Assembly: GCF_012272835.1 (NCBI RefSeq) | Contig: NZ_JAAWWK010000004.1 | Location: 372,001-436,000 of the forward strand | Reading direction: 5' to 3' | Origin: Spongiibacter thalassae | GTDB taxonomy: Bacteria; Pseudomonadota; Gammaproteobacteria; Pseudomonadales; Spongiibacteraceae | DNA length: 64,000 bases | Shown: positions 39,268 through 50,055 of the stretch, one piece after another | Layout of the letters: every line of letters begins with the position of its first letter | Position numbering within the stretch: the first letter of the stretch is position 1 | Notes under the pieces: model-generated | The model's input: only the letters and a program-made list of their open reading frames with translations | Databases searched by the model: none | Told to the model about the DNA's origin: nothing | Translations under genes and position numbers: made by a program

Positions 39268-39567
39268 ATGAAAAAGTACTTATTCGCCGTACTTCTGGCT
39301 GTCGGTAGCCTCGTTGCCAATGCCGCAGAAATGTCCGTGGCCGACCGCTACAAGAAAAGCTGCTACGCCTGTCATGGCTTTGGTGCCAACGGTGCCCCCA
39401 AGACCGGATCAGCCGAAGATTGGGCGCCGCGACTGGAAAAGGGAATGGACACGCTGGTCAAGCACGCCGCCGAAGGTTTTGGCACCATGCCGCCAAAGGG
39501 GCTGTGTTTTGATTGCAGTAATGAGGACTTCAAGGCCCTGATCGAATTTATGGCCGAAGCCAAGTAA
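39268..39567 (+). CDS. Cytochrome c5-like monoheme protein
   Basis: The 99-residue periplasmic cytochrome has a signal peptide (1-20, cleavage after ANA or NAA) and heme motif CYACH near 32-36. The axial Met is in TMPPKG. A CFDC pair near residue 82 is the disulfide typical of cytochrome c5. It precedes cytochrome c4 by 55 bp. Electron transfer toward the aa3 oxidase is the likely job. A close paralogue is encoded at 47092-47457. Confidence 0.9.
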   Translation: MKKYLFAVLLAVGSLVANAAEMSVADRYKKSCYACHGFGANGAPKTGSAEDWAPRLEKGMDTLVKHAAEGFGTMPPKGLCFDCSNEDFKALIEFMAEAK

Positions 39568-41161: not shown

Positions 41162-41262
41162 AGTATTGGTTTCACCCTGCCGGACGAAACCAATACTCTC
41201 CAGAAGGAAAAACGGAAGGGCTGGATCAGGTTTCTTGGCCAGACCTGCTACTGTCAGCCCTT
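41162..41262. terminator. Two strong hairpins between convergent dsbA and the RimK-like gene
   Basis: AGTATTGGTTTC (41162-41173) pairs perfectly with GAAACCAATACT (41186-41197) around 12 nt. A second structure pairs AAGGGCTG (41216-41223) with CAGCCCTT (41255-41262), with an inner CAGGT/ACCTG stem; it overlaps the stop of the leftward gene. Neither has a long T-run. Together they probably separate the two converging transcripts. Confidence 0.6.
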
Positions 41263-42366
41263 ACCATCAGGTGGTGTCTTCACCTGAACTTTTACCCCCG
41301 CATCAACAATCGGCATTTCCGCCTCCCGCTGCTTTCTTTCCTGCTCTTCTAGCAGACGGGCTTCCTCGGCTCGCTGTGCCGCCAGTGCGGCGCACTCGGG
41401 ATTGGCGAACCGGGTCTGACAGAATTTCTGTCGTTTACTTGCCGCGGCACGCTTTATGCCTTTTTGCTCGAGGCGTTCGATCTCCGCTTCTACCTGACGG
41501 CATCTCGCCGCCAGACCGGTGTCGTTGGCGATCTGGATATTCAGCCCCGGGCGCGCATTGAGTTCCAGCATCAGCGGCCCCAGATCCTTGTCGAGCACCA
41601 TGTCTACGCCGATATAACCCAGCCCGGTGAGCTCGTAGCAACGGGTGGCCAGAGACATAAAGCCTTCCCAATAGGGCAGCTGCACGCCGCGCACCGGGTT
41701 GGTGGTGTCGGGGTGGGTCTGTATCTTTTTGTTCAGCCAGGTGCCGTCAAGGGTGATGCCGGTGGCGAGATCGACACCGACACCAATAGCACCCTGATGC
41801 AGGTTCGCCTTTCCGCCGGACTGGCGGGTGGGCAGGCGCAACATGGCCAGCACCGGATAGCCCTTGAGCACGATAATGCGAATGTCGGGAACACCCTCAA
41901 AGCTGATGGCGCTGAAGATGGGGTCGGGGATAACCCGGTACTCAATCAATGCCCGGTCGCGGTGGCCGCCCAGAGAATAGATGCCCGAGAGAACGCCTGA
42001 CAGGTGAAACTCGATATCCTCGGCGCTGATAAGACGGCCGCCGGTGGTGCGGTAATAGCCCTCGAACTGGTCGGCGATCACCATAATGCCATCGCCCCCG
42101 GCCCCCTGGGCGGGTTTGATCACAAAGTCGCGATGATCCTGAATGAGCTGCCGAAAGTTGCCGATCTGTTTTTCCGAGTCAACAATGCCATACATCGGTG
42201 GCACGTGAATGCCGTTGTCGATGGCTTTCTTCTTGGTCAGTATCTTGTCGTCTACCAGGGGGTAGAGATGACGCTGGTTGTAGCGCAACACGAAATCGGC
42301 GTTGCGCTCGTTGATACCCATGATGCCTTTCTGGCGAAGTTCCCGCCAGGTGCTGAACAGTGACAT
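41254..42366 (-). CDS. RimK-like ATP-grasp ligase (alpha-L-glutamate ligase-related)
   Basis: The 370-residue cytoplasmic protein has an ATP-grasp fold: VIKPAQGAGGDGIMVI near residues 101-116, then LMLELNARPGLNIQIAN near 268-284 with the metal-binding Glu and Asn. It matches the RimK-related subfamily that is always next to a 7TM transglutaminase-like protein, rather than ribosomal RimK. A charged, Ala/Glu/Arg-rich C-terminal extension (about 300-350) is probably coiled coil. The likely reaction is ATP-dependent amide bond formation; the acceptor is unknown. It starts 1 bp after the 7TM gene stop. Confidence 0.85.
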   Translation of the reverse strand: MSLFSTWRELRQKGIMGINERNADFVLRYNQRHLYPLVDDKILTKKKAIDNGIHVPPMYGIVDSEKQIGNFRQLIQDHRDFVIKPAQGAGGDGIMVIADQFEGYYRTTGGRLISAEDIEFHLSGVLSGIYSLGGHRDRALIEYRVIPDPIFSAISFEGVPDIRIIVLKGYPVLAMLRLPTRQSGGKANLHQGAIGVGVDLATGITLDGTWLNKKIQTHPDTTNPVRGVQLPYWEGFMSLATRCYELTGLGYIGVDMVLDKDLGPLMLELNARPGLNIQIANDTGLAARCRQVEAEIERLEQKGIKRAAASKRQKFCQTRFANPECAALAAQRAEEARLLEEQERKQREAEMPIVDAGVKVQVKTPPDGKG

Positions 42367-42367
42367 A

Positions 42368-43903
42368 TCAGTTACCGTCCTTAATCAGTGCCTTGAACCG
42401 CAGTAACTCACTGAAGCGATAGCCGCGGTAGTGCCCCAGGGCCAGCATAAAGGCCATAAACACCAGCAAAATTCCGGGGAAGGTGAACACGAAATAAATC
42501 CACGGCGAATAGCTCATCATCAGATGAGACAGGGTTGCCGCAACCAGTGTGCCAAAGCCTACTTTCATGCTGTGCAGGCCGCCCCGCTCTTCCCAGACGA
42601 TGGACAGGCGCTCTATGGACATGGTCAGAATAACCATCGGGAACAGGGCGATAGACAAGCCTCGGTCGAGGCCGAGCTGATGCCCCAGTACGCTGATCAG
42701 CGCCATTACGATTACCACGAAGGTCAGCACGACTGACAGTCGCGACAGCAATTGCAGGTGCAGGTGTTCAAGATAGCTGCGTAGACCGAGGCCCAGCGCC
42801 GAAATACTGGAGAACATAATAATGCCCCACAGCACCTGGGTTTCCCGAAAGGCCAGACCGATCAGTACAGGGGTAAAGGTGCCCAGGGTTTCGATCCCGA
42901 TGATATTGCGCAGCACCAGAATCAGCATGACGCCGATGGGAATCATCAGGATGATTTCAAAGGTCTGCTGGGATTGCAGAGGCAGGCTGTACATCGACAG
43001 CGCCCAGCTGTTGCCGTCGCGGGCCTCCTGAATACTTTGTGCCAGAGTGATGGAGTTTACCGTCTGTTGGGTAGAATTGATTTCCACCTTCAGGTGATGG
43101 CCGCCATCTACCTTGACCATTGGCTCGCTGCCGGTCCACCACACAATGCGGTCCTTGGGCATGCCAAAGGAGCCGGTCTCGGGGTTGAAGTACAGCCAGC
43201 GTTGGCCGTTATAGCTGCGCATCCACAATTCGGGCGACTGACTCACGCCGCTGGCCAGTCTTACCGTGTGTACCTGTTCGACTGGTATATGGGCCGAGGA
43301 CAACAGCAGCTCCAGCACTCGGGATTTGTTGATCTGCGAGTAGTCGTTGCGCAGTAGCAGCCGCGCATTGTCGTTGTCGGTATTGTTGATGAGCTTGATC
43401 GCTTCGCGAATAAAGGTCTCGATATCGGCGGAGTGCTCGCGAATAGGTTTCAACAAAGCCTCGACGGCGACTTTTTCCACCCCTTGAAGGTCAGGGCTTT
43501 CGCGGAACTGGGGGCCTGGCTCCTCATTGGTAAAGCGGGTATTGCTGCGCTGGGTCAGCATCAGGCGGTAGAACAGCTGCTGCTGGCCGTCGGCGCGGCG
43601 GGCAGACCACACCGCGGTGCGGTTGTGTTCCAGGTCGTCGATGTTGACCCCGTAATTGCGGGCGACAAAGCTCTCGTCAAGGGTAATGAACTTGCTCCAG
43701 CTCGGCGGCAGGTACATTTGCACCTTGATCGGGTTTTTGGGGCGGGCGGTAAAACTGATGCGGGTGTCAATCACCCACACCGGTTCCTCGGTATCCGCGC
43801 TCACCGGAATATTCAGTGCAAAAATCTGCCATGCGGTGCTGGCAGCACCGATCAGCATCAGAACAATCGCCAGCACTCTTACATGCAGCTTTACGCCTTT
43901 CAT
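42368..43903 (-). CDS. 7TM protein with inactive transglutaminase-like periplasmic domain
   Basis: The 511-residue membrane protein has one N-terminal TM helix (about 9-29) and a periplasmic region (about 30-310). This region contains a transglutaminase-like fold that appears to lack a catalytic Cys-His-Asp triad; I see no cysteine in it. Seven TM helices follow (about 320-490). This is the inactive-transglutaminase/7TM family encoded with RimK-like ligases and retropepsin-like proteases. Sensing or peptide binding at the membrane is plausible, but the role is unknown. It overlaps the protease gene by 4 bp. Confidence 0.85.
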   Translation of the reverse strand: MKGVKLHVRVLAIVLMLIGAASTAWQIFALNIPVSADTEEPVWVIDTRISFTARPKNPIKVQMYLPPSWSKFITLDESFVARNYGVNIDDLEHNRTAVWSARRADGQQQLFYRLMLTQRSNTRFTNEEPGPQFRESPDLQGVEKVAVEALLKPIREHSADIETFIREAIKLINNTDNDNARLLLRNDYSQINKSRVLELLLSSAHIPVEQVHTVRLASGVSQSPELWMRSYNGQRWLYFNPETGSFGMPKDRIVWWTGSEPMVKVDGGHHLKVEINSTQQTVNSITLAQSIQEARDGNSWALSMYSLPLQSQQTFEIILMIPIGVMLILVLRNIIGIETLGTFTPVLIGLAFRETQVLWGIIMFSSISALGLGLRSYLEHLHLQLLSRLSVVLTFVVIVMALISVLGHQLGLDRGLSIALFPMVILTMSIERLSIVWEERGGLHSMKVGFGTLVAATLSHLMMSYSPWIYFVFTFPGILLVFMAFMLALGHYRGYRFSELLRFKALIKDGN

Positions 43904-44496
43904 CCGGCGCTCTCCTCGTTATTTGCGACGGTGTCGTCGCTGGTAGTTTCTTCCGCCTTCTCGCAGGCGGTCTTATTTTGCAGGAATGACTGTGACGGAT
44001 CGACGATGGCATTAAAGGCAATCAGTGGATCCGAGCCGAACAGCATCGGCTTGGAGAACTGACGGCGGTCGGCCAGGTTGACCTCGACTTTTTCCGAGCG
44101 GCCGCCCACACACAGGGTCAGCTTCAGCACCGGTCGGCGGTGGTAGTATTTGTCATCTTCGTCCATGTCTCCGGCTCGGCGAATGATGCGGATATGCTTT
44201 TCCAGCGGCAGGCTTACCGACTTCAGTTCGCCACTGGGCAGCACCAGATCGAAGTGAACAATATCATCCTCATCGTCGCCCTTCGCCTTCTCGACTTTGG
44301 CATTAATGGCGTTTATCGACGCACTTTCGGCTCCGGTATCAATCTTGGCTTTGTACTTGACACCCAGCTCCTCGATATACACATATTCGGTTAGCCCGAA
44401 GGTGCGTTGCTGCTCTGCTAGGGCGGCGGGAGCGGCGAGCATCAGCAGAATAAAAGCGGTACTCAGGGCCGATAGATAGGGTGAAAGATGTCTCAC
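43900..44496 (-). CDS. Retropepsin-like periplasmic protease (pfam05618, annotated as ATP-dependent zinc protease)
   Basis: The 198-residue protein has a signal peptide (1-27, cleavage after ALA) and the aspartic protease motif KIDTGAESAS with Asp53. This places it with single-domain retropepsin-like peptidases that would act as dimers. The family's older name, zinc protease, is not supported by any zinc motif here. The GTG at 44496 has AGGAGG 5-6 nt upstream and begins the signal peptide; an ATG at 44535 is rejected. It is the first gene of the protease-7TM-RimK-like operon. Confidence 0.83.
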   Translation of the reverse strand: MRHLSPYLSALSTAFILLMLAAPAALAEQQRTFGLTEYVYIEELGVKYKAKIDTGAESASINAINAKVEKAKGDDEDDIVHFDLVLPSGELKSVSLPLEKHIRIIRRAGDMDEDDKYYHRRPVLKLTLCVGGRSEKVEVNLADRRQFSKPMLFGSDPLIAFNAIVDPSQSFLQNKTACEKAEETTSDDTVANNEESAG

Positions 44497-44620
44497 GAAA
44501 CCTCCTGTCGAATACGGCAAATGCTCAATCAGCATAGAACACTTGCGGAAAAATGCGCCAGTAAGCCCACAGCGGGTTGTTGCGCTACCGGCACGATAGA
44601 TAAAAACGATGTACGGAGGC

Positions 44621-47091: not shown

Positions 47092-47457
47092 CTATTTCGA
47101 AGCGTTTGGCAAGTTGCCGGGGTGGGCCATGAAGTTAATGAGCGCGCGGAAATCGTCGTCGCTGCAGTTAATGCACATGCCCCGCGGTGGCATCGCGTTG
47201 TAGCCATTTCGCGTGTGGTTTAGCAGGGTGTCCATTCCGGTGGCCAGACGCGGTGCCCAGTCCTGTTGGTTGCCGGTGCGTGGCGCGCCATTGACCCCGG
47301 TGCCGTGGCAGCTGTAACAGCTTTGAATATAGAGGGACTTCAGCGCTGGTGAATCTGGCATTTGGGTCTTGCTGGAGCTTGCGGGAGCGCTGCTGTCGGG
47401 GACGCAGGCTGCGCAGACCAGGGCGACAAGTGCGGCGAACAGGCTATTTTTGGCCAT
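47092..47457 (-). CDS. Cytochrome c5-like protein in operon with ectR
   Basis: The 121-residue protein has an N-terminal hydrophobic signal that ends in a Cys-rich site (VCAACVP), so it may be a lipoprotein. The heme motif CYSCH is at 47-51, the axial Met in AMPPRG, and a CINC pair follows. It is strongly similar to the cytochrome at 39268-39567 through the whole heme domain (shared WAPRL, GMDTLL/V and MPP). ATG 47457 overlaps the 3' end of the MarR gene by 14 bp, so both are on one transcript. Confidence 0.85.
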   Translation of the reverse strand: MAKNSLFAALVALVCAACVPDSSAPASSSKTQMPDSPALKSLYIQSCYSCHGTGVNGAPRTGNQQDWAPRLATGMDTLLNHTRNGYNAMPPRGMCINCSDDDFRALINFMAHPGNLPNASK

Positions 47458-47968
47458 GACTGTATCCAAACTTGGGCAGTTCGCTCTCACTTTGGCGGTC
47501 GATCGCGCCCACGTCGAGCAAGGGCGCAGCGTCAATGTGCTGTGCGTCCATCATCATCGCCACTCGCTGCAGCGAGCTGATAATTTGCATCTGCTCCCAA
47601 TCCTGCAAGTCTCTGAATTGCCTTTTGAAATATTCCTGCAGCGGTGTCGGGGCGTTGCGTATGGTGTCGGCTCCGGCCTCGGTAAGGCAGGCGTAGACCT
47701 TGCGCTTGTCGCGGCTGCTGCGCTCGCGGACGATCAGCTCGCGCTTTTCAAGGCGGTCGATAATGCTGGTCACGGTGGCCTGGCTCAGACTGACCTGCTT
47801 GGCGATATCAGAAATAATCGCGTCGCCGTTGTCCCGCAGCGTTTGCAGAATAAGAATTTGCGGGGCGGTGAGGCCCGAGGTTTTCATCAGGTGCTTGGAG
47901 TGCAGATCGACGGCGCGGGTCACGCGGCGCAGTGCGATCAGCACTTCTTCAATCAGTTTCTCGTTCAT
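47444..47968 (-). CDS. ectR: MarR-family regulator of the ectoine operon (EctR-like)
   Basis: The 174-residue protein has a MarR winged helix: LTAPQILILQTL, IAKQVSLSQATVTSIIDRLEKRELIVRERSSRDKR split over residues 47-95, with the wing DKRKV. It is divergent from ectA with 231 bp between start codons, the position of EctR1-type repressors that control ectABC-ask in methylotrophs and marine bacteria. Salt-dependent derepression is inferred from that family. It is co-transcribed with the cytochrome c5-like gene. Confidence 0.88.
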   Translation of the reverse strand: MNEKLIEEVLIALRRVTRAVDLHSKHLMKTSGLTAPQILILQTLRDNGDAIISDIAKQVSLSQATVTSIIDRLEKRELIVRERSSRDKRKVYACLTEAGADTIRNAPTPLQEYFKRQFRDLQDWEQMQIISSLQRVAMMMDAQHIDAAPLLDVGAIDRQSESELPKFGYSHGQK

Positions 47969-48052
47969 AATCGTTCTCGGTTTGAGTGCACAATAATAGT
48001 GCCGTTAGGACTAAAATGCACCCAAGTAATACATAGTTCACAAAGTCTTCAT

Positions 48053-48092
48053 TTGAAAAATACCCGTCTACCTGCGTATAATACATCGTGTA
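48053..48092 (+). promoter_or_regulatory. Sigma-70-like promoter upstream of ectA with overlapping palindrome
   Basis: TTGAAA (48053-48058), an 18-bp spacer and TATAAT (48077-48082) make a good sigma-70 promoter. TACA-TCG-TGTA (48082-48092) is an inverted repeat over the start point and could be part of an EctR operator. A second TATAAT at 48179-48184 has no suitable -35. Confidence 0.6.
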
Positions 48093-48199
48093 CTAAGCAA
48101 TTATTAGGGAGGTTGGGTTCATAAGCTGTCTAAATCAGTGGTTTTCTGTACTGAACCACGGGTTTGTGACATTCAGTTTATAATGAACACAAATGAATT

Positions 48200-48736
48200 G
48201 TGTTGAAATCAAATAAAGCGACTGACTCTGACGCTTTCCAGCTCGTATTTCGTCAACCGACTGCCGAAGACGGGTTTCCCCTCAATCAACTCGTTGCGGC
48301 GAGTCCACCCCTGGATCCGAATTCGATTTACTGCAATTTATTGCAGTGCACGCATTTTGCGTCTACATCGGTGGCGGTGGAAGAAGATGGCCGCCTGGTC
48401 GGTTTCATCTCTGCGCATATCCCCCCTGAAAAACCGGACACGATTTTTGTCTGGCAGGTTGTGGTCGATAAAAGTCAGCGCGGGCGAGGTCTGGCAAAGA
48501 AAATGATGCACGAGATAGTGAAACGTCCGGCCTGCGCCGATGTCCATTATCTTGAATCAACGATTACTCCGGATAACGAGGCGTCCTGGGCTTTGTTCCG
48601 CAGCTTTGCGCGGGACGTGGGAGCCGAGTTGAACCACGCTATCTGGTTTGAGAAAGACAAACACTTTAATGGGGTACACGACAGTGAGTCATTGCTGCGT
48701 ATAGGCCCCTTCCCTCGACCCCCTTTAGATAAATAA
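48200..48736 (+). CDS. ectA: L-2,4-diaminobutyrate N-gamma-acetyltransferase EctA
   Basis: The 178-residue GNAT enzyme acetylates diaminobutyrate, the second step of ectoine synthesis. Family signatures FRQPTAEDG, SIYCNLLQCTHFA and the acetyl-CoA loop SQRGRGLAKKMM (near 92-103) are present. No ATG is available: an in-frame TGA at 48194 precedes GTG 48200 and TTG 48203, one of which must start the protein. No Shine-Dalgarno is visible. A 7-codon frame (ATG 48183 to TGA 48206) overlaps this start, suggesting translational coupling. Confidence 0.93.
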   Translation: MLKSNKATDSDAFQLVFRQPTAEDGFPLNQLVAASPPLDPNSIYCNLLQCTHFASTSVAVEEDGRLVGFISAHIPPEKPDTIFVWQVVVDKSQRGRGLAKKMMHEIVKRPACADVHYLESTITPDNEASWALFRSFARDVGAELNHAIWFEKDKHFNGVHDSESLLRIGPFPRPPLDK

Positions 48737-48780
48737 CGGTCGGTTAAACAGAACAGTAAAGGAAGCTAAGAGGATTTATC

Positions 48781-50055
48781 ATGACTATTTTTGACCAGCT
48801 CGAATCAGAAGTTCAATGTTACGCACGTTCATTTCCGGTGACCTTTGACAAGGCCCAGGGCGAGCACCTGTACGGCAAGGACGGCAAAAAGTATCTCGAC
48901 TTTCTCGCCGGCGCCGGCACGCTGAACTACGGCCACAACCACCCGGTGCTGAAACAGGCACTGGTGGACTACATCATGGCCGACGGCATTACCCATGGCC
49001 TGGATATGCACACCAAGGCCAAGGCCGAGTTCCTTGAGACCTTTAACGAATATATTCTCAAGCCCCGCGACCTGGACTACACCTTCCAGTTTACCGGCCC
49101 CACAGGCACCAATGCGGTTGAAGCCGCGCTGAAACTGGCGCGTAAGGTGACAGGACGCAACACTATCGTGTCGTTCACCAACGGCTTCCACGGGGTGACC
49201 CTGGGTAGCGTCGCGGCCACAGGTAACAGCCACCACCGCGGTGGTGCCGGTGTGGCGCTGGGCGATGTATCGCGCATGCCGTTCTGTGGCTATCACGGTC
49301 GCGACATCGACAGCCTGAAAATGATGGATACCCTGCTCAGCGACCCCTCCTCCGGTGTCGATTTGCCGGCGGCAATGATTGTCGAGTGTGTGCAGGGCGA
49401 GGGTGGCCTGAACGTCGCTAACGCTGACTGGCTGCGCGGTCTGGAAAAACTGTGTCGCAAACATGACATTCTGCTGATTATTGACGATATTCAGGCGGGT
49501 TGTGGCCGTACCGGCACCTTCTTCAGCTTTGAGCCCAGCGGTATCAAGCCCGACATCGTGACCATGTCCAAGTCGCTGAGCGGCTATGGCCTGCCCTTTG
49601 CGATCGTCTTGCTGCGCCCTGACCTCGACGTATGGGAGCCGGGCGAGCACAACGGTACATTCCGCGGTAACAACCACGCTTTCGTTACCGCCACAGCGGC
49701 GATCCGCGAGTTCTGGAAAGACGAGACCTTTGCCAACAGTGTCATCGAAAAAGCTGCCATTGTGGCCGACCGCTTCAAGAAGATCTCTGATCGCTATGGT
49801 GTGACCCGGGTCAAGCCCAAGGGTCGCGGCATGATGCAGGGCATTTCTATGGCCGACGGCGACACCGCCGATGCAGTAGCCAAAGCCTGTTTTGAGCGCG
49901 GTCTGGTTATCGAGACCTGTGGTAACCGTGGCCAGATCGTGAAGTGTTTCTGCCCGCTGACCATCGAAAAAGACGAGCTGATTCGCGGCCTGGATATCAT
50001 GGCTGAAGCCGTCGCCGAAGTGGTTGAGAAAGCTTTCGAGCGCAAGGCTTCCTAA
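48781..50055 (+). CDS. ectB: Diaminobutyrate-2-oxoglutarate transaminase EctB
   Basis: The 424-residue PLP enzyme forms L-2,4-diaminobutyrate from aspartate semialdehyde and glutamate, the first step of ectoine synthesis. It is a class III aminotransferase with [14 protein letters not shown] near 235-248 and the PLP lysine in [10 protein letters not shown] near 264. The N-terminus [16 protein letters not shown] is typical of EctB. It lies 44 bp after ectA. Confidence 0.96.

Follow-up and report, generated by a model that had tools for sequence, protein, structure and literature searches.

What could join a secreted protease, a membrane protein with a transglutaminase-like domain and a cytoplasmic ligase in one operon? 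Three genes raise this question in the stretch of Spongiibacter thalassae DNA that we analysed (64,000 nucleotides of contig NZ_JAAWWK010000004.1, positions 372,001 to 436,000; hereafter the window). They are rloA-rloB-rloC, an unremarkable instance of a bacterial stress operon that was described only recently. Operons of this kind are already known from Pseudomonas aeruginosa, where Lormand et al. named rloA, rloB and rloC in 2025 (PMC12239564), and the window copy is a further member. That work left the roles of RloB and RloC open; comparison of RloB and its neighbours across bacteria offers a concrete candidate answer, a coupled ligase and exporter. New here, relative to the literature we found, are two types of RloB and an unnamed operon, spread across phyla, whose RloB keeps the catalytic cysteine and histidine (the Cys-His type). 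We found neither the two-type split nor this sister operon in print in the open-licence literature, subscription papers lying outside the scope of the search.

The window operon and its three proteins

The first-pass annotation of this DNA had described three overlapping or abutting genes at 41254..44496, and this layout is exact. The genes run in the order A-B-C, all on the minus strand, with a 4-base overlap between rloA and rloB and a single base between rloB and rloC (Table 1). RloB is present in all 11 genus genomes examined, and the frames of all three genes are open in each of the eight genus loci compared. We assign the operon to the rlo kind by its families, gene order and site features, despite scores for RloA (132.9 bits against NF052262, cut-off 280) and RloB (748.6 bits against NF052267, cut-off 900) that fall below the NCBI cut-offs; both models are of the kind 'exception', which we read as narrow and meant for close orthologues. 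RloC passes the cut-off of TIGR02291.

RloA had been called a secreted DTG-type aspartic protease, and the PF05618 match, a DTGA motif and a hydrophobic N-terminus in the translation bear this out. Its start is a GTG at 44496 with a Shine-Dalgarno-like AGGAGG immediately upstream (the first ATG of the frame is at 44535); among eight genus relatives the same frame start recurs exactly in five, the V-R-F lies inside a longer frame in two, and one starts with ATG. The window protein matches the solved chains 9g58 (2.4e-28) and 9g59 (1.5e-18), which, from their names and these matches, we take to be the RloA and RloA2 structures of PMC12239564. By our own mapping on this alignment, the published polyglutamate contacts K46, D48, R114 and R137 correspond to K64, D66, R134 and R157 of the window protein, and R92 to K113. 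R134 is kept in 91 and R157 in 90 of the 92 PF05618 proteins that neighbour an RloB gene; 63 of 72 such proteins have a signal peptide by our measure (the other 20 were left out of this count, no DTG string having been found in them). The single other PF05618 gene found in the window genome (C13:35605-36012, locus L201; C, L and G numbers are our handles for contigs, loci and genomes) is RimB-like and, judged by eye, without a signal peptide. RloA may have been exchanged in one genus relative (L229): its RloB shares 81% identity with the window copy, its RloA only 51%, and by eye this RloA has a signal like that of a lipoprotein.

RloB was said to lack, seemingly, a catalytic cysteine. This is now certain, because the protein has no cysteine in its 511 residues; Gln190, Glu225 and Asn240 stand in the transglutaminase site, so the Cys-His(-Asp) set of an active transglutaminase is missing, and the combination of PF14400 and PF14402 with absent catalytic residues is that of RloB from rlo operons. 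At least 90% of 177 RloB proteins, drawn from both main types, agree at 29 positions. Because 24 of these sit in the PF14402 membrane domain, and several are charged (R332, E431, R432, E439, R496, E499 and R502 are among them), this domain looks more like a working transporter than an anchor. Against solved structures the RloB profile gave 12 matches at E up to 10: the putative cysteine protease 3isr covers the transglutaminase part (E 0.0005), the aminotransferase 1vjo (E 0.0026) was taken as a chance match, and the remaining ten had E 0.63 or worse.

RloC keeps the residues of an ATP-grasp enzyme, Lys84 being present in 175 of 175 relatives and Glu268 and Asn270 in 174 of 175. For a 17-sequence RloC profile the nearest solved chain was RimK (8.7e-12), followed by other alpha-L-glutamate ligases (2.6e-11), cyanophycin synthase (6.8e-8) and tubulin polyglutamylases (1.8e-4 and weaker). 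The earlier call of a cytoplasmic ATP-grasp ligase with a coiled-coil tail holds for the ligase. The tail, past about residue 320, does exist; since its length and sequence vary among the eight genus relatives it is not a conserved part, and we dropped the coiled coil as a functional part of RloC.

Two types of RloB and a sister operon

Whether the three genes form one conserved system, as the first-pass annotation held, was examined by its own proposed check, a survey of co-occurrence. We used 229 gammaproteobacterial genomes and, as a second sample, 398 genomes of the phylum. In the first sample PF14402 was found in 47 genomes, TIGR02291 over its cut-off in 37 and PF05618 in 104. RloB of the rloABC type is present in 38; all 37 genomes with RloC over the cut-off have this RloB, and all 38 with this RloB have RloC (in G033 as a contig-end fragment below the cut-off). 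This supports one system for RloB and RloC. The family of RloA is wider than rlo and includes RimB-like proteins without a signal peptide, but a member adjoins nearly every RloB gene of the rloABC type (counts below).

The second sample had PF14402 in 65 genomes. Pooling all PF14402 matches of both samples gave 109 unselected loci, with G000, G162 and G072, present in both, counted once, and with G077 dropped (its PF14402 match was weak, below the family cut-off, and our own models found no RloB in its stretch, L039). These comprise 93 loci of the rloABC type, ten of the Cys-His type, four of a third type and two without a transglutaminase part. The transglutaminase cysteine and histidine are each absent from all 93 rloABC-type proteins; RloC adjoins RloB in 92 (the remaining locus is at a contig end) and a PF05618 gene does so in 90 (the exceptions are L015, L042 and L156). 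In the ten Cys-His loci RloA is never adjacent, RloC is always adjacent or fused, and a tetratricopeptide repeat (TPR) protein always lies directly downstream. Over all 109 loci, RloA adjoins none of the 10 RloB genes with Cys-His and 92 of the other 99 (Fisher P 4.6e-10). This value does not count many independent events, because in a membrane-domain tree of 73 hand-chosen rows the Cys-His rows all lie to one side of a single well-supported branch; on this tree the exclusion is one deep split, not repeated events. Six of the ten Cys-His genomes, several of them incomplete, gave no PF05618 gene (G071, G197, G390, G492, G281 and G354); three (G101, G181 and G315) have RimB-like members only, with no signal peptide by eye; and G033, with 6% contamination, has an rloABC-type set too, on another contig.

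The third type (L036, L037, L038 and L189) lacks the cysteine, and two of its four members keep the histidine; a PF05618 gene is adjacent in L037 and L189 and about 4.8 kb off in L038. In L185 (genome G349) and L186 (G307), possibly a third, minimal form, a PF14402 membrane protein without a transglutaminase domain stands beside an RloC-like ligase; a predicted barrel-like gene comes first in L186 and lies about 1 kb or more upstream in L185. Common to all types with RloC are the PF14402 membrane domain and the ATP-grasp ligase, and it is the periplasmic part that varies. Among viral contigs, none of 18 candidate stretches was confirmed as a relative.

To enlarge the Cys-His set we scanned 84,980 species genomes, confirmed 91 relatives and kept the best 80. 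The scan patterns contain, and so select for, the histidine and the aspartate; the cysteine is not in them. Cysteine and histidine occur in all of the best 80 and all three residues together in 68. RloC is adjacent or fused in 78 and a TPR protein follows in 72, the misses being confined to eight loci that each end less than 900 bases from RloB. A barrel-like gene was found in 46 of the 80 (41 of the 62 with at least 4.5 kb downstream), and RloA in none of the 80, within 3.1 to 21.6 kb of locus DNA. By record titles and tree labels, many of them of metagenome-assembled genomes, these loci belong to Gamma-, Alpha- and Zetaproteobacteria, Nitrosomonadales, Nitrospirota, Campylobacterota, Myxococcota, Spirochaetota and Bacteroidota. 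No NCBIfam name came over its cut-off for the Cys-His RloB or the barrel (locus L033 and the L107 fusion).

RloB and RloC form a single open frame, as a rule of about 800 residues, in 24 of the 80 loci and in the unselected L035. The nine fused rows of the membrane-domain tree group together, so a single origin of the fusion is possible. Pfam finds Transglut_core, membrane domain and ATP-grasp in this order in both fusions scanned (L035 and L124, the latter from Kangiella spongicola), so that the membrane-domain end adjoins the ligase. Repeat matches number 10 to 12 in each of the TPR proteins encoded downstream in L031, L033 and L034, and 22 of 25 TPR proteins that passed our filter have a hydrophobic stretch near the N-terminus. 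The outer-membrane barrel is a prediction, and a weaker call than the TPR protein: five proteins scanned with Pfam (L031, L033, L034, L060 and L091) gave one barrel match below the cut-off (E 5.9e-5), one weak Omp85 match (E 0.014) and three times no match; among complete candidate frames the N-terminus is hydrophobic in 49 of 49 and the last residue is Phe, Tyr or Trp in 26 of 49. Of 29 sister loci with an upstream frame passing the filter, 15 have a TPR gene there and 11 a lipobox-like motif. Taken together, these gene sets look like machines that make a peptide polymer and move it across the envelope.

Proposed synthesis, export and trimming, and the alternatives

The first-pass annotation called the substrate and purpose of the set not established, which is partly outdated. 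In the parts of PMC12239564 covered here, the secreted RloA proteases of P. aeruginosa are demonstrated to be retropepsin-like dimers that in vitro cut reporters with 8 or 10 glutamates and not those with 6 or fewer, fail on glutamate runs interrupted by arginine, and cut polyglutamate inside or at the end of proteins. Growth at low salt ceases once the three secreted RloA proteases, which are redundant in this requirement, have all been removed; deletion of rloB or rloC rescues this growth fully and other defects partly; and rlo mutants have cell-shape, cell-wall-drug and biofilm phenotypes. Our comparison establishes the coupling of the genes, the intact ligase residues, the dead transglutaminase site and the relatives in which membrane domain and ligase are fused.

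We think the chances about even that the operon serves to synthesise an acidic peptide without ribosomes, to export it and to trim it, poly-alpha-glutamate being the likeliest product. In the cytoplasm RloC would assemble the chain, using glutamate and ATP; RloB would carry it across the inner membrane via the PF14402 domain, with the dead transglutaminase domain holding or guiding the emerging chain; and RloA, as a periplasmic dimer, would cut chains from about 8 glutamates upwards. Either the chain itself or envelope molecules bearing it would burden the periplasm with an anionic, osmotically active load, whose fixed charge would matter most at low salt. Without RloA the polymer would accumulate and kill cells at low salt; without RloB or RloC it would not be made or not be exported, and cells would survive. 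Three of these steps we infer, namely that RloC makes polyglutamate, that RloB exports it and that death is osmotic; make, export and cut is the simplest order given the conserved membrane domain and the published suppression genetics. The kept RloA contacts, the ligase kin of RloC, the fusions, the TPR and barrel partners of the sister operon, and the free poly-alpha-glutamate made in vitro by RimK plus RimB (PMC11957791, in the part covered) lend this reading further support.

Several observations weigh against it. The literature covered describes no RloC product, and phmmer, run with one RloC sequence alone, brought up no relative of solved structure. The exclusion between RloA and Cys-His is statistically weak, being a single tree branch, and a secreted RloA-like gene located elsewhere in genome G411 counts against a neat picture of types. 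The four third-type loci have RloB without an adjoining RloC. G120 and G167 have rloBC without the cysteine and with RimB-like proteases only, so RloA is not always needed. No barrel match was obtained in 21 of the 62 sister loci with enough downstream DNA. Homology of RloB to PgsC, a small polytopic membrane protein that partners the cytoplasmic ligase PgsB for a glutamate polymer, is unproven: window RloB has no Pfam match to PF14102 (PgsC) at E up to 10, and among 80 RloB-bearing genomes 5 of 67 weak PF14102 matches land on RloB (3 of 14 in the first 20 genomes, 2 of 53 in a further 60), three of the five being from one family. Profile-profile comparison of RloB and PgsC gave a best probability of 17.6% (P 0.0014 over 40 columns; P 0.22 for its own reversed control, while another reversed control reached P 0.0036) and so did not confirm the homology.

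Synthesis with export may extend beyond rlo. More tentatively than for the window operon, we suggest a new class of synthase-exporters, built around RloB-RloC, that make peptide polymers without ribosomes by an ATP-grasp ligase coupled to a membrane channel. In one branch (Proteobacteria, Nitrospirota, Campylobacterota, Myxococcota, Spirochaetota and Bacteroidota) this core would belong to a complete export apparatus that spans the envelope and includes an active transglutaminase or cysteine protease of its own, a scaffold of TPR protein and a barrel in the outer membrane. Members of the rloABC branch would have a dead catalytic site in RloB and a separate retropepsin to handle the polymer in the periplasm. 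The sister relatives thereby point to a function that could be tested for the family as a whole, that of ligase and exporter in one coupled unit, and the unnamed operon would be a simpler test system, including strains with ligase and membrane protein as one polypeptide. If true, bacteria would have a further route, besides the poly-gamma-glutamate pathway, for a peptide polymer outside the cytoplasm, with a bearing on osmotic tolerance, biofilm and cell-wall drug sensitivity.

A possible objection is that glutamate is added to something else. RloC with RloB could put glutamate tails on a cell-wall enzyme or other envelope component, and RloA could remove them to set its activity, as a periplasmic parallel of the action of RimK and RimB on a ribosomal protein. 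Such tagging would suit the cleavage of polyglutamate within or at the end of proteins and the cell-shape and cell-wall-drug phenotypes, and the authors favour polyglutamylated proteins or free poly-alpha-glutamate, export by RloB not being proposed in their discussion (PMC12239564, as covered here). We nevertheless judge it unlikely, if the best of the alternatives: no tagged protein is known, the ligase is predicted to be cytoplasmic and the protease is secreted, so that either the tag or the molecule carrying it still has to get through the membrane, and the sister operon with its predicted barrel looks built for export.

Inactive enzyme domains frequently act as binding modules, and on this general ground RloB might be a receptor, with the dead transglutaminase domain sensing peptides or wall fragments and switching RloC while RloA sets the signal level. 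This is the direction that the first-pass annotation had proposed, from a periplasmic event to the cytoplasmic ligase. That membrane domain and ligase can be joined in one protein would be in keeping with a receptor as well. The Cys-His type, however, keeps its catalytic residues (10 of 10 unselected and 80 of 80 selected loci), and L185 and L186 pair the membrane domain with RloC in the absence of a transglutaminase domain, so sensing by this domain is not the common function. We found no specific support for an inward signal; flow in the outward direction agrees better with the rescue genetics, with the RloB-RloC fusions and with the outer-membrane partners predicted for the sister operon, and we regard a receptor as improbable.

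Least probable of all, and very much so, is that the set adds amino acids to a surface polysaccharide, as the Pfam name of PF14397 ('sugar-transfer associated ATP-grasp'), the biofilm phenotypes (PMC12239564) and the vesicle overproduction after disruption of an inactive-transglutaminase-annotated gene in another bacterium (PMC12096838, in the part covered) might suggest, since RloA cuts polyglutamate in vitro and fails on shorter or arginine-interrupted runs.

Surroundings of the locus and comparison with known systems

About 3 kb from rloA are genes for the synthesis of ectoine, a further pathway of osmotic stress, which together with a neighbouring regulator span 47444-50055 (Table 1). Two short c-type cytochrome genes flank the region and share almost identical motifs (CYACHG/CYSCHG, NGAP, MPP and LxxCxNCS-like); judged by eye, they seem to be paralogues of each other.

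Table 1. Features in and around the rlo locus, in window coordinates
Feature	Position	Strand	Description	Evidence
rloA	43900..44496	-	secreted retropepsin-like aspartic protease	PF05618 2e-24; 9g58/9g59 chain matches
rloB	42368..43903	-	periplasmic transglutaminase-like domain and PF14402 membrane domain; catalytic Cys/His absent	PF14400 5e-44; PF14402 1.2e-90
rloC	41254..42366	-	RimK-related ATP-grasp ligase; variable C-terminal tail	PF14397 1.6e-92; TIGR02291 502.6 bits (cut-off 314.2)
short c-type cytochrome	39268-39567	+		no NCBIfam name over cut-off
short c-type cytochrome	47092-47535	-		no NCBIfam name over cut-off
MarR-type regulator	47444-47968	-	beside ectA/ectB	
ectA	48200-48736			TIGR02406 over cut-off
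ectB	48781-50055			TIGR02407 over cut-off

Among known systems, PgsB-PgsC shares with rlo the idea of a cytoplasmic ligase with a membrane partner, and a PgsB-PgsC-like pair was seen in L207. The ligases differ: PgsB belongs to a Mur-ligase-like class, whereas RloC is an ATP-grasp enzyme that matches ATP-grasp families only. Separately, we observed tandem pairs of PgsC-like PF14102 domains at the N-terminus of frames of about 500 to 1,090 residues (L208, with 693 residues, and L212-L216), in one Pseudomonadales genome and in five of 78 genomes of the class of G281; the L208 gene stands beside a CapA-like gene, by eye.

The RimK-RimB pair resembles rlo in having ATP-grasp glutamate-ligase kin and a homologous retropepsin. 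It differs in that the RimB-like proteins encountered in our survey are, by eye, without a signal peptide and, in the parts of PMC12239564 covered, the pair has no RloB-like membrane protein.

The P. aeruginosa operon is the closest match, with the same three families in the same order, the DTG site, the polyglutamate contacts and the dead transglutaminase, although neither RloA nor RloB of the window reaches the NCBI cut-off for its named counterpart. P. aeruginosa has two further secreted RloA paralogues (PMC12239564), whereas the one other PF05618 gene of the window genome is RimB-like.

The Cys-His sister operon, finally, has in common with rlo the PF14402 membrane domain and an RloC-type ligase, adjacent or fused, and differs in keeping the cysteine, the histidine and usually the aspartate, in having no adjoining RloA, and in carrying a TPR protein and often a predicted barrel downstream.

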